In this document: positions 4,055 to 49,047 of the stretch, piece by piece | Numbering within the stretch: the first letter of the stretch is position 1 | Layout of the letters: every line of letters begins with the position of its first letter | Source: Salipiger mucosus DSM 16094 | GTDB taxonomy: Bacteria > Pseudomonadota > Alphaproteobacteria > Rhodobacterales > Rhodobacteraceae | Direction of reading: 5' to 3' | Length of the DNA stretch: 64,000 bases | NCBI RefSeq assembly: GCF_000442255.1 | Contig: NZ_KE557275.1 | Coordinates: forward strand, 71,232-135,231 | Notes under the pieces: generated by a model | Told to the model about the DNA's origin: nothing | Seen by the model: only the letters and a program-made list of their open reading frames with translations | The model's database searches: none | Program-made: the position numbers and the translations under genes

Positions 4055-6876
4055 TCGCCCACCCTCCAGCGCAGCGCTCCGGGCCCCTTGCCCACGGGCG
4101 ATTTCAGCGCGCCGAAGACGGGCTGCGCCTCGTCGGGGACGGCGGATTTCTCGAGCCGCACGCGCAGGTCGAACCAGGCCGCCTGCCCGGTGATCGGGTC
4201 GGAATTGGACCAGCGGTGGCCGTCGCCGCGCTCGGGCAGCAACTCGTGGATCAGGTGGTTGAGCAGGAAGCCCTTGGTCGCCTCGGGCGCCTTCTCGTCC
4301 AGCGCCCAGGCGCCCTTGCGCTTGCCGATGGCATTCCAGGTCCAGACCGTGTCGGCGTTCAGCGCCGCCATGTGCGCGACCGGCACCGTGATCTCGCCGT
4401 GCGACGAGATCACCCGCACCCAGTCGCCCTCGGAAAGGTCCAGCTTCTCCCACCACCAGGTCGGCAGATAGAGCGGGTTCACCCCGTGGATCTGCCGCAG
4501 CCAGGCGTTCTGCGAGCCCCAGGAGTGATACATCGCCATGGGCCGCTGGGTGATGGCATGGATCGGGAACTCGGCCGGGTCCTCGTGGGCGTCCGACAGC
4601 GGCGCGTACCAGTCTGGAAGCGCATCGAAGGTGGCGGCGATCCGGCCGCGCAGATGCTCGGGCGGTTGCCGTTCGCCCTTGCCCTCGGCGGCGAGCTGGA
4701 AGCGGCGCAGCGGCTCGGACCAGAGCTGGATCAGGTAGGGCTGCGGCGCTTCGGCAAGGCCCATCTCGACCGCCCAGTCCTGGTAGGCCATGTTCCAGGG
4801 CTTGTAGTAGGCCGCCTCCTCGGGGACATGCGCGGTGAAATAGCCGCCCTGCGCGATGTAGCTGTCGAGCTGCGCCGCGTTGGGCTCGCCCCGGCCGTGG
4901 GTCAGCCCGGCCTCGCCCATGCGCCAGCCCGCCAGCGGGCCGACGCCCGGCTTGCGCTCGTGGTTGACGATGTAGTCGGCGTAGTCGGCATATGTGGGCG
5001 AGCCGTCCTCCTCGACCATGCCGGGCAGGCCCAGCCGGGCGCCGAGGTCCAGCAGCACCGACTGGAAGGGCCGCACGTCGCGGTCGGGCTCCACCACCGG
5101 CCAGCGGATCGCGTCGGCGGCGGCATCGGGTTCGCTGATCGGCCGGTCCAGCAGAGAGATGCAATCGTGCCGCTCGAGGTAGGTCGTGTCGGGCAGCACG
5201 AGATCGGCATAGGCCACCGTCTCGGACGAGTAGGCGTCCGAGCAGATGATGCGAGGGATGACATAGTCGCCGTCCTCGTCCTGGCGGGTCAGCATCTCGA
5301 TGGTGCCGCGCGTGTTCATCGAGGAGTTCCACGCCATGTTCGCCATGTAGAGGAACAACGTGTCGATCCGGTAGGGATCGCCCGCGGCGGCGTTCGAGAT
5401 CACCATGTGCATCAGCCCGTGCGCCGAGAGCGGGTTCTCCCAGGTGAAGGCCTTGTCGATGCGCTGCGGGGTGCCGTCCGCGTCCAGCGCGAGATCCTCG
5501 GGGCCCTGCGGAAAGCCCAGGTGCGGCCCCGGCAGCGGCGCGTCGGGGCATGCCACGGCATGGGGGCGCGGGTGCGCGTCTGCGGGCTTGGGATAGGGCG
5601 GCTTGAAGCGGAAGCTGCCCGGGGTCTCGACCGCGCCCAGAAGCACCTGCAGCACATGCAGCGCGCGGCAGGTCTGGAAGCCGTTGGCATGGGCCGAGAT
5701 GCCGCGCATGGCGTGCATGGCGACGGGACGGCCGGGCATGCTCTCGTGACGCTCGCCCCGGAAGTCGGTCCAGGGGCGGGGCAGGTCCACCGCCTCGTCA
5801 AAGGCCGCGCGGGCCAGCTCGGCGGCGATGCGGCGGATGCGGTCTGGCGCCACGCCGCAGCGGCCGGCCACCTTTTCGGGGGCGTATTTCGGGTCGAGGT
5901 AGCGCTCGGCGATCTCGTGCATGACCGAATGGTGGGTCACGCCCGCGCGCCGGATGTGGCCGGTGAGCTTGGGCTGCACGCCCTGCCCGTCCCAGGGCGC
6001 GGTCCGTCCGGTCGCGCGATCGACCACGAGCGGCTTGCCGTCCTCGTCGCGCAGGAAAAGGCCGTGGGTGTCGGACTTCGGATCGCAGTCCAGCAGCACC
6101 GGGGCATTGGTGTAACGCGCGAGGTAGTCGAGGTCGATTCGCCCGGCGCGCAGCAGCTCGTGCACCAGCGACAGGATGAACAGCCCGTCGGTGCCCGGCG
6201 TGATGCCCACCCATTCGTCCGCGATGGCGTTGTAGCCCGAGCGCACCGGGTTCACGCCGATGACCTTGGCGCCGCGCTCCTTGAGCCGGGCAAGGCCCAT
6301 CTTCATCGGGTTGGAGTCGTGGTCCTCGGCCACGCCGAAGAGCAGCATGAGCCGCGCGTTCTCCCAGTCCGGCGATCCGAACTCCCAGAACGAGCCGCCC
6401 AGCGTGTAGATCCCCGCGGTCGCCATGTTGACCGAACAGAAGCCGCCGTGCGCGGCATAGTTGGGCGTGCCGAACATCTGCGCCCACCAGCCGGTGAAGC
6501 TCTGCGACTGGTCGCGGCCGGTGAAGAAGGCCAGTTTCTCGGGCGCCTCGTGCCGCAGCGGCGAGAGCCAGTCGGCCGCGGTCTTCAGTGCCTCGTCCCA
6601 GCTGATCTCCTCGAACTCGCCCGAACCGCGCGGCCCCGTGCGGCGCAGCGGCTTGCGCAGACGCGCGGGCGAATTGTGCTGCATGATCCCGGCCGAGCCC
6701 TTGGCGCAGAGCACGCCCCGGTTCACCGGGTGATCGCGATTGCCCTCGATGTAGGAGACCTTGCCGCCCTTCAGGTGCACGTCGACGCCGCAGCGGCAGG
6801 CACACATGTAGCAGGTGGTCTTGCGGATCTCGTCCGAGACCCTGGGCGCGGTGTCGATCCGGGGCTGGTCCGTCAT
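4051..6876 (-). CDS. soeA: Sulfite dehydrogenase molybdopterin subunit SoeA
   Basis: This 941-aa molybdopterin oxidoreductase is the catalytic subunit of a SoeABC-like complex that oxidises sulfite to sulfate in the cytoplasm. An N-terminal [4Fe-4S] site is visible (Cys22, Cys25, Cys29, Cys57, in CYMCACRCG and GVLCAKG). The catalytic domain with GTPNYAAHGGFCSVN and the late molydopterin-dinucleotide-binding domain (from about residue 770) follow. There is no Tat signal, which fits cytoplasmic SoeA and argues against a periplasmic DMSO reductase. The gene is first in the operon and is followed by the bridging ORF, soeB, soeC and an NTF2-like gene. The exact substrate is inferred from family resemblance; polysulfide or another sulfur oxyanion is possible. 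Confidence 0.82.
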   Translation of the reverse strand: MTDQPRIDTAPRVSDEIRKTTCYMCACRCGVDVHLKGGKVSYIEGNRDHPVNRGVLCAKGSAGIMQHNSPARLRKPLRRTGPRGSGEFEEISWDEALKTAADWLSPLRHEAPEKLAFFTGRDQSQSFTGWWAQMFGTPNYAAHGGFCSVNMATAGIYTLGGSFWEFGSPDWENARLMLLFGVAEDHDSNPMKMGLARLKERGAKVIGVNPVRSGYNAIADEWVGITPGTDGLFILSLVHELLRAGRIDLDYLARYTNAPVLLDCDPKSDTHGLFLRDEDGKPLVVDRATGRTAPWDGQGVQPKLTGHIRRAGVTHHSVMHEIAERYLDPKYAPEKVAGRCGVAPDRIRRIAAELARAAFDEAVDLPRPWTDFRGERHESMPGRPVAMHAMRGISAHANGFQTCRALHVLQVLLGAVETPGSFRFKPPYPKPADAHPRPHAVACPDAPLPGPHLGFPQGPEDLALDADGTPQRIDKAFTWENPLSAHGLMHMVISNAAAGDPYRIDTLFLYMANMAWNSSMNTRGTIEMLTRQDEDGDYVIPRIICSDAYSSETVAYADLVLPDTTYLERHDCISLLDRPISEPDAAADAIRWPVVEPDRDVRPFQSVLLDLGARLGLPGMVEEDGSPTYADYADYIVNHERKPGVGPLAGWRMGEAGLTHGRGEPNAAQLDSYIAQGGYFTAHVPEEAAYYKPWNMAYQDWAVEMGLAEAPQPYLIQLWSEPLRRFQLAAEGKGERQPPEHLRGRIAATFDALPDWYAPLSDAHEDPAEFPIHAITQRPMAMYHSWGSQNAWLRQIHGVNPLYLPTWWWEKLDLSEGDWVRVISSHGEITVPVAHMAALNADTVWTWNAIGKRKGAWALDEKAPEATKGFLLNHLIHELLPERGDGHRWSNSDPITGQAAWFDLRVRLEKSAVPDEAQPVFGALKSPVGKGPGALRWRVGE

Positions 6877-47712: not shown

Positions 47713-48135
47713 TCAGCCGTCGGGATCGACCCGGCCGCGCAGGGCCTTCTTCTGGCCGGTGGCCTTCTTCGACTCCAGCCGGCGGCGCTTGGAGCCCAGC
47801 GTCGGGCGTGTCGGGATGCGCCGCTTGGGCTTTTCCAGCGCCTTGCGGATCAGCTCGGCCAGCCGGTCGCGGGCGATCTCGCGGTTGCGGGCCTGGCTGC
47901 GGGTCTCGTCGACCTGCAGCACCAGCGCGCCCTCGGTCGTCCAGCGCCGGCCGGCGAGCTTGCGCAGGCGCGTCTTGACCGGCTGCGGCAGGTTCGGCGA
48001 CCGCGCCGCCTCGAACCGCAACTCGACCGCCGAGGCGACCTTGTTCACGTTCTGCCCGCCGGGCCCGGAGGCGCGGACGAACTGCTCGGTGAGTTCCCAG
48101 TCCTCGATCTGGATGCGGTCGGTGATCTTCAGCAT
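47713..48135 (-). CDS. arfB: Alternative ribosome-rescue factor ArfB (peptidyl-tRNA hydrolase YaeJ)
   Basis: This 140-aa release-factor-like protein frees ribosomes stalled at mRNA ends. The catalytic GGQ is at residues 26-28 ([15 protein letters not shown]), and the C-terminal tail is rich in Lys and Arg ([13 protein letters not shown]), which enters the mRNA channel. There is no stop-codon-recognition domain, which separates it from RF1/RF2. A terminator-like hairpin and a short ORF lie directly upstream, so expression may be controlled by attenuation. Confidence 0.93.
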
Positions 48136-48169
48136 GAAACAGTCATACAGCACAGGCCGGGACAAATGA

Positions 48170-48201
48170 AATGGGCCGCCCGGCCTGTCGGGCGACCCAT
48201 T
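48170..48201 (-). terminator. Terminator-like hairpin just upstream of arfB
   Basis: On the minus strand AATGGGTCGCCCG (48201-48189) pairs with CGGGCGGCCCATT (48182-48170) through 13 pairs including one G-T, with a 6-base loop. A T-rich tail (TCATTTG) follows. It ends 35 bases before the arfB ATG. It would stop transcripts carrying the 18-codon ORF before arfB. Confidence 0.7.
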
Positions 48202-48267
48202 CGAGATCAAGGAGGCGTGCCGGTTAGGCAGAGGCCAACCCGTGTTTCCGGTTCACCAGGGGCTGCC

Positions 48268-48324
48268 CTAGTGCCAGTCCCTCCGAGCTGTTCCGACACC
48301 TCTCTCCAATGTTTCTCTAGACAC
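48268..48324 (-). CDS. 18-aa ORF with ribosome binding site matching the 16S 3' end
   Basis: The GTG start (48324) is preceded by GAAAGGAGGTGATCCAG (48340-48324), complementary to the 3' end of 16S rRNA over 17 bases. GGAGG is spaced 7 bases from the GTG, the ideal distance. The peptide would be MSRETLERGVGTARRDWH, basic, with no known family. After the stop, a GGCAG/CTGCC stem encloses a smaller hairpin. A CGCCTCCTT segment (48217-48209) can pair with AAGGAGGTG of the ribosome binding site, and the terminator at 48170-48201 follows. I do not recognise this element. It lies between the queuosine-transporter gene and arfB. Confidence 0.5.
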   Translation of the reverse strand: MSRETLERGVGTARRDWH

Positions 48325-48405
48325 TGGATCACCTCCTTTCAGCTGTTGAAAAACGCAGGTCCAGCCTTGCACGGGTGCCGGCTTTCGCAAAGCGTTTTCT
48401 GCAGG

Positions 48406-49047
48406 TCAGGCGGTGGCGGGCCGACCGGTCGCCTTGGAAACGATCATCCGGAAGGGAATGAGCGCGATCAGCGCCAGCGCGAGCTTCACCATCCAGTCCG
48501 CGACGGCCAGCGAGACCCAGAGCGGCACCATCGGCCCGGCCCCCAGAAGCGGCAGCGGCTCGTTGGCCCAGGACACGTCGTTGCCCGGCTCGATGAAGCT
48601 CAGGCCGGCGGAAAAGGCCACGGTGAAGAAGATCGCGGTGTCGAGCGAGGAGCCGATCAGCGTCGAGGCCAGCGGCGCGCGCCACCAGCGGCCCTCGCGC
48701 AGGCGGTCGAAGACCGCGACGTCCATCATCTGCGCCACGAGGAAGGCGGCGCCCGAGCCGATGGCGATGCGCAGCGTGACCGCCGGGTAGGTGAAGCCGT
48801 CGCCCTGCAGCATGATCTGCGTGCCGATCAGCGAGCAGATGACGCCCACGATGAAGCCGGCGAAGACGACCTTGCGCGCGGCCTGCACGCCGTAGAGGCG
48901 GTTCATCAGGTCGGTGACGAGGAAGGCGAGCGGATAGGTGAAGGCGCCCCATGTCAGCCACTGGCCGAACAGGAACTGGACGAGGATGTTCGAGGCCAGC
49001 ACGATGGCGGCCATGGCAGCGATGCCGGGAAGATGTGCGCGTGTCAT
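48406..49047 (-). CDS. Queuosine precursor transporter (YhhQ/DUF165 family)
   Basis: This 213-aa inner-membrane protein has about six helices and the YhhQ family pattern (LVTDLMNRLYG near residue 45, FLVAQMMDVAVFDRLR near residue 105, SSLDTAIFF near residue 135). The family imports preQ0/preQ1 for queuosine in tRNA. No preQ1 riboswitch is recognisable in the 68 bases upstream. The 82-base gap to the 18-codon ORF downstream has a short GCTTT/AAAGC stem but no clear terminator. Confidence 0.88.
   Translation of the reverse strand: MTRAHLPGIAAMAAIVLASNILVQFLFGQWLTWGAFTYPLAFLVTDLMNRLYGVQAARKVVFAGFIVGVICSLIGTQIMLQGDGFTYPAVTLRIAIGSGAAFLVAQMMDVAVFDRLREGRWWRAPLASTLIGSSLDTAIFFTVAFSAGLSFIEPGNDVSWANEPLPLLGAGPMVPLWVSLAVADWMVKLALALIALIPFRMIVSKATGRPATA

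Follow-up and report, generated by a model that had tools for sequence, protein, structure and literature searches.

The window, a stretch of 64,000 nucleotides from Salipiger mucosus DSM 16094, carries on its minus strand a gene for a queuosine precursor transporter (48406-49047; TIGR00697, 101.6 bits) and, downstream of it, arfB (47713..48135; NF006718 ArfB, 182.8 bits with a cut-off of 100). Between the two genes, the minus strand reads in order CAACAGCTGAAAGGAGGTGATCCAGTG, an 18-codon open reading frame (ORF), a structured stretch, CACGCCTCCTTGATCTCGAA, and a terminator-like hairpin; arfB follows and lies outside the element. The initial annotation had placed these elements near 48165-48345, and all of them are present there. 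The complement to the 16S tail is exact over the claimed 17 bases (GAAAGGAGGTGATCCAG, 48340-48324), the GTG (48324-48322) stands 7 nt past GGAGG and opens an ORF of 18 codons that ends in TAG (48270-48268), the nine-position segment able to pair with the Shine-Dalgarno sequence (SD) is CGCCTCCTT (48217-48209), and the arfB ATG at 48135 leaves the described gap of 35 bases after the hairpin. The hairpin itself, given as a 13-bp terminator-like structure, can form up to 14 pairs (approximately 48201-48171), but its U-rich tail is interrupted.

The SD (48324..48340, minus strand) was delimited by 17-mer searches and by the ends of 16S genes from the same genus. These genes (genomes G006, G019, G009, and G003) end in GGCTGGATCACCTCCTTTCTAAGG, so the SD-16S match comprises 17 contiguous bases; no 16S gene with the end GGCTGGATCACCTCCTTTCTAAGG was found in the assembly of the window's own genome. 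With up to three mismatches allowed, the window yields 2 matches to the 17-mer versus 0.09 expected, of which the one at this site is exact; the 17-mer occurs a single time in the genome. The segment AAGGAGGTGATC is present at nine sites in the 5.7-Mb genome, with a start codon at the usual spacing only at the window site; one other site has a GTG, farther off. Across the class, AAAGGAGGTGATC followed by 2 nt and an A/G/T-TG start was found in 80 of 385 genomes, as compared with 1 of 385 for the same pattern with the start one base nearer. An origin as a 16S fragment or antisense artefact was ruled out, as the match is followed by a start codon and an ORF instead of further 16S sequence and belongs to a conserved unit of 180-190 nt. 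The start codon, the frame, and the hairpin tail all lie on the minus strand, which makes a plus-strand RNA the less favoured reading.

A permissive Rfam search aligned the window at 48348-48172 to all 159 positions of RF01867, the CC2171 small RNA (sRNA) of Caulobacter, with a score of 42.5 bits (E 7e-8), which is below the gathering score of 75. The remaining Rfam matches at the site (BjrC1505, suhB, nhaA-I, Pedo-repair, and ciona-mir-92) scored 11.6-16 bits, below their gathering scores, and were taken as chance. RF01867 matched 42 of 61 relatives at E <=0.001, with only one genome over the cut-off, and among 14 control genomes it matched Caulobacter vibrioides only; plain DNA similarity matched 34 of the 61 relatives, among them all 20 genomes of the genus. 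We also built a covariance model, R1, from 51 sequences of the 18-codon form. R1 matches the window RNA at positions 1-189 with 175.1 bits, a score to be read knowing that the window sequence is itself included in R1, and it matches 224 of the 248 genomes sampled from the family (196 of the 215 good ones). When applied to ten loci from other orders, R1 matched seven over their full length (E 2e-6 to 2e-4), missed L108 and L123, and matched L130 only elsewhere. The window RNA is thus related to CC2171 by a significant full-length match in both directions, and the two share the 5' block CAACA...GAAAGGAGGUGAUCCAGUGUCU and the final hairpin. They differ in that the window RNA has its anti-SD after the ORF, closing on the SD, an ORF of 18 codons versus 20-26, and a start-codon hairpin. 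Together, R1 and RF01867 outline the whole RNA, an 18-codon form of a CC2171-like structured small RNA, at 48166..48351 on the minus strand.

CC2171 reportedly goes back to a description in Caulobacter by Landt et al. in 2008. Folded and widely conserved among Alphaproteobacteria, this small RNA has so far been catalogued as non-coding. In the accessible text of two further sources, RF01867 is named in a Mesorhizobium sRNA survey, as MH_s33 of 215 nt in an RNA-seq table (PMC5596092), and in the Rfam 15 paper (PMC11701678). Within the accessible portions of the literature searched (CC2171/RF01867, anti-SD and 16S-mimic sRNAs, arfB expression, and Roseobacter/Rhodobacter sRNAs), we recognised no description of the CC2171 RNA that covers its ORF, long SD, or mimic.

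For comparative analysis we assembled 174 records, 39 from covariance-model matches and 135 from matches to the SD-start pattern, which were deduplicated by identical 90-nt core and required to have 250 nt of downstream sequence. ORF length played no part in the selection, whereas the invariance of SD and start in 135 of the 174 records holds by construction because these were collected by that pattern. Among the matches listed, exact-pattern loci occur in Brevundimonas, Phenylobacterium, Bosea, Methylobacterium, Bradyrhizobium, Azospirillum, Ancylobacter, and many Rhodobacteraceae. Of the genomes in a phylum-wide sample, 9 of 38 from Alphaproteobacteria contain this pattern, as do 0 of 112 others. 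Relatives in many alphaproteobacterial orders carry the SD, the start codon, a short ORF, and usually the terminator. Five of the matches listed come from non-alphaproteobacterial bins, namely metagenome-assembled genomes (MAGs) of Phycisphaerales (L093 and L153), Gemmatimonadetes (L087), Nitrosomonadales (L138), and Nitrospinota (L149). All five contigs have the same SD and start codon and an ORF of 11-24 codons, and they may be misbinned, transferred, or convergent. One genome (G048) has two copies, with ORFs of 24 and 18 codons (L034 and L065), both with the long SD.

The window ORF (48268..48324, minus strand; GTG start, TAG stop) encodes VSRETLERGVGTARRDWH. Exactly 18 codons are found in 61 of the 174 records, 14 codons in 14, 20-26 codons in 81, and other lengths in 18. 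Within the 18-codon group (n=61), the start is GTG in 56 records and ATG in 5, and the stop is TAG in 38, TGA in 13, and TAA in 10. A stop codon falls inside the first 13 codons in 2, 59, and 73 of the 174 records for frames 0, 1, and 2, respectively; these records are related, so the counts give no probability. The frame bias of stop codons, together with the exact placement of the start, points to selection on the reading frame, with only a weak third-position signal: variability at the three codon positions in the 18-codon group is 0.69, 0.73, and 0.86, the third being only mildly higher. In the accessible text of a ribosome profiling study of Caulobacter, two unspecified RNAs formerly predicted to be non-coding are reported as translated (PMC4117421).

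A kept frame and start would also be expected of a simple small-protein gene, that is, an mRNA for a functional peptide whose fold merely tunes expression, and within the 18-codon group the peptide is recognisable as VSRxxLERGVGTxRR. Azospirillum-type and Geminicoccaceae-type loci (L130 with its SD near 6756, L160, L171, and L209; L107 and L227) carry after the same SD an ORF of 56-59 codons whose N-terminus, e.g., MSHGASPVVAALFGLAALLTAGIANA, looks like a signal peptide by eye, which would suit the same explanation; the one such product tested had no Pfam match. Across orders, however, the peptides are wholly different (VSHCHQ..., MSSE..., VSYLKRCHLAGIAR), and codons 2-5, as well as the codons that encode the mimic described below, follow RNA pairing. 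We therefore regard a simple small-protein gene as improbable. Bradyrhizobium and close relatives (L108, L115, L120, L121, L135, L146, and L148) have a 14-codon ORF that ends in a constant KRCHLAGIAR, the codons of which hold two segments able to pair with the SD. We consider it very probable that the window element is a CC2171-related, structured, stand-alone, and translatable RNA, which would be made as a separate transcript and would be translated.

The window RNA region folds with z = -4.68 and with the SD paired to the anti-SD. To define the consensus fold, we aligned 51 of the 61 18-codon records, leaving aside three doubtful members (L065, L073, and L140) and seven near-duplicates (L043, L048, L050, L052, L061, L067, and L069). 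This alignment yields 53 consensus pairs, present in 89.7% of cells; 32 of the 53 change on both sides. Double changes were counted in 205 cells versus 80.6 (sd 7.6) in shuffles, and the signal was lost when partners were slid. The SD:anti-SD helix (helix 1), in which CGCCUCC (48211..48217, minus strand), an imitation of the 16S tail, pairs with 48336-48330, is paired in 98.6% of cells in the 51 sequences. Its SD side is constant, partly through the choice of records, while substitutions on its anti-SD side exchange A with G and C with U, always keeping standard or G-U pairs with the SD. The comparison across relatives that the initial annotation had proposed finds SD, ORF length (18 codons), and SD:anti-SD pairing kept, as that annotation required for support, the invariance of the SD being largely by construction.

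Further helices involve the start codon and the ORF. The start-codon hairpin (helix 2; 48305..48328, minus strand), formed by 48328-48320 with 48313-48305, is paired in 93.2% of cells, with double changes in 3 of 9 pairs, and its loop can reach the pre-terminator segment (near 48206-48201) in a pairing that is strong across the class and weak within the 18-codon group. The central helices (helices 4-6; 48237..48290, minus strand) join the end of the ORF to the stretch past the stop, approximately 48290-48281 with 48246-48237 and 48274-48266 with 48261-48253; 15 of their 16 pairs change on both sides, and 73-86% of cells are paired. Helix 8, the terminator-like hairpin with its interrupted U-rich tail (48164..48201, minus strand), is paired in 95.9% of cells, with double changes in 11 of 14 pairs and a folding energy of -25.1 kcal/mol.

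A class-wide helix pairs codons 2-5 with the segment just before the terminator and displays compensation of the whole helix (CAUUGUC/GACAAUG, GUGAG/CUCAC, and AUGAGAUU/AAUCUCAU). Permutation tests used the records with a usable terminator or anti-SD motif (133 and 138 of the 174). The mean energy of this helix is -9.28 kcal/mol versus -6.52 kcal/mol (sd 0.22) with permuted partners, a value that 0 of 2000 permutations reach (133 records; likewise 0 of 2000 in the test on 138). A control stretch was matched by only 3 of 2000 permutations; as it beats nearly all of them, kinship of the records contributes to the helix signal. CC2171 has an outer stem that joins codons 3-5 to the segment preceding the terminator. 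Its counterpart is strong across the class and weak within the 18-codon group, where 33 of 2000 permutations do as well (58 of 61 records included), and the window version is GAGA/UCUC only. Because the codon 2-5 helix crosses the SD:anti-SD helix in linear order, the two would mean either a pseudoknot or two alternative states.

We searched for duplexes between the SD and the rest of each RNA and scored them against dinucleotide shuffles. In 157 of 174 records the SD partner outscores the shuffle mean, and in 85 of 174 it ranks within the best 10 of 200. The partner, which lies within the ORF or beyond it, is often similar to the 16S tail: many Rhizobiales-type records have CUGGAUC...GCCUC inside the ORF, Bradyrhizobium has CACCUC and GGGAUCGCC inside its 14-codon ORF, and the 18-codon group has C(A/G)(C/U)CUCC directly before the terminator. 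In thermodynamic folding, the SD is less accessible than in shuffles in 59 of 61 records with 18 codons and in 13 of 14 with 14 codons, as compared with only 22 of 81 with 20-26 codons and 7 of 18 others. The 20-26-codon group, which is nearest to CC2171 proper, has a mean unpaired SD fraction of 0.40 versus 0.31 in shuffles. A uniform sequestration of the SD across the class is ruled out by this group (22/81). In these folding models, SD sequestration is well supported for the 18-codon lineage and Bradyrhizobium, and not for the whole family.

The mimic raises the alternative of a base-pairing sRNA that acts in trans, with an incidental ORF, a CCUCC that binds the SDs of targets, and an own SD that serves as a safety lock. 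RF01867 is catalogued by Rfam as an sRNA gene, and the SisA-D RNAs of Caulobacter, according to the accessible text of their description, repress targets via a motif with an anti-SD signature (PMC12559287). A purely non-coding role leaves the kept start position and frame unexplained, and in most records outside the 18-codon group (101 of 113) the ORF itself contains the best SD partner; we judge this alternative unlikely. Compared by description only, SisA-D resemble the window RNA as small RNAs with an anti-SD signature and differ from it in acting in trans with Hfq, whereas the anti-SD of the window RNA has a partner in cis (PMC12559287, accessible text).

Signals consistent with a separate transcript flank the conserved fold. 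By eye, a possible -35 (TTGCGA) lies at 48385..48390 on the minus strand, 51 nt before AAAGG, and a 17-nt spacing suggests a possible -10 (AGGCTG) at 48362..48367 on the same strand, from which transcription would be expected to start near 48350-48354. These marked elements are weak, and a strict consensus scan of 48050-48500 found no sigma-70-type promoter. Among the records, TTGAC occurs 48-52 nt upstream of the SD in 44 of 172, versus 3 matches in a 100-nt control stretch. This set distance would put the 5' end near the conserved CAACA, at or near which the RF01867 and R1 models both begin. At the other end, the window U tract reads UUUCAUUUG, and many relatives have a run of T. The same 48050-48500 interval contains no terminator that passes the T-run rule of a strict scan, and we therefore describe the hairpin as terminator-like and not as textbook. 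For 121 of 174 records, a simple detector placed the end of a terminator-like hairpin 100-170 nt past the start codon; 36 gave an earlier end, 15 a later one, and 2 no hairpin at all. In the 36 early cases, the detector may have stopped at internal hairpins.

The initial annotation had suggested that the element senses ribosomes and gates arfB. As an arfB leader or attenuator, it would let ribosomes on the short ORF control transcriptional read-through of the hairpin into arfB. We searched for arfB by tblastn with the window ArfB as query (E <=1e-6). In 48 of the 61 18-codon records, a same-strand arfB was found downstream at a distance of at most 700 nt (46 of 59 when only records with at least 700 nt of sequence are counted), and in the window the gap of only 35 nt and the interrupted U tract leave room for read-through. 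The 52 upstream genes of this group form one same-strand cluster, the identity of the transporter being known from the window member only; transporter, RNA, and arfB are a kept gene order in the 18-codon group. This order and the interrupted U tract make a local read-through effect on arfB possible in this lineage.

As a general function, however, the gating of arfB finds no support. No arfB was found downstream in the 113 records outside the 18-codon group (0 of the 104 having at least 700 nt of sequence), and among the 38 of them for which a nearest conserved downstream gene could be called, its orientation is mixed (same strand in 18, opposite strand in 20); on these grounds, the RNA is probably not a general arfB leader. 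Even within the 18-codon group, arfB is present anywhere in the examined stretch in 52 of 61 records and absent from it in 9 (two of them, L065 and L140, from other groups), and it lies 0.7-1.1 kb away in four (L084, L097, L102, and L151). The SD-mimic pairing is kept where arfB is absent or distant (L040, L102, and L134), the terminator of the consensus fold is the same whether the SD is paired or free, and in linked records anything from 164 to 333 nt separates the start codon from arfB. We consider an arfB leader quite unlikely. The annotation's other suggestion, a separate short mRNA or sRNA, is favoured because the element is conserved far beyond arfB, has a promoter-like signal at a set position, and has no constant downstream gene outside the lineage.

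Overall, the explanation that we prefer, by a modest degree of belief, is a stand-alone, ribosome-gated small mRNA/sRNA and not an arfB attenuator; its gating, a switch thrown by 30S subunits, is the more tentative part. The RNA would be a separate transcript of ∼185 nt, the mainly Rhodobacterales 18-codon form of CC2171 (RF01867), with a near-maximal ribosome-binding site at its 5' end whose SD, complementary to the single-stranded 16S tail over 17 nt, would open the short ORF. The in-cis imitation of the 16S tail would compete with real 30S subunits for the SD, and the further helices would hold the start codon and the ORF. Available 30S subunits would displace the mimic, leading to translation of the short ORF and unfolding of the RNA; when they are scarce, the RNA would close. 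Any output would lie within the RNA itself, through its stability or the exposure of the CCUCC mimic to other mRNAs, and not in a long protein or arfB. A bolder extension, which we hold as doubtful, is a class-wide sensor in which the SD is balanced against the in-cis imitation such that the open fraction reports free 30S, and opening through initiation or translation of a throw-away ORF frees CCUCC or alters decay, adjusting translation in trans.

Two further systems offer comparison, each as described in the accessible text of its source. The rnTrpL/peTrpL RNA of Sinorhizobium meliloti is likewise a small transcript with a very short ORF, translated there and predicted here, but it is leaderless and serves as the trp attenuator, whereas the window RNA has a very long SD and no constant downstream operon (PMC10117765). 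The arfA gene of E. coli, a rescue gene that senses the state of translation, is the model for the idea of gating arfB; its control works by way of the non-stop arfA mRNA and trans-translation (PMC10107115), and nothing comparable was seen in the window. The element is an RNA, matched in 224 of 248 sampled family genomes, that carries a 17-nt complement of the 16S tail, with an imitation of that tail also present in most copies examined. The first reading is redirected: arfB is a neighbour in one lineage and not a likely general target. If the balance between SD and mimic is functional, the RNA would be a natural gauge of ribosome availability.
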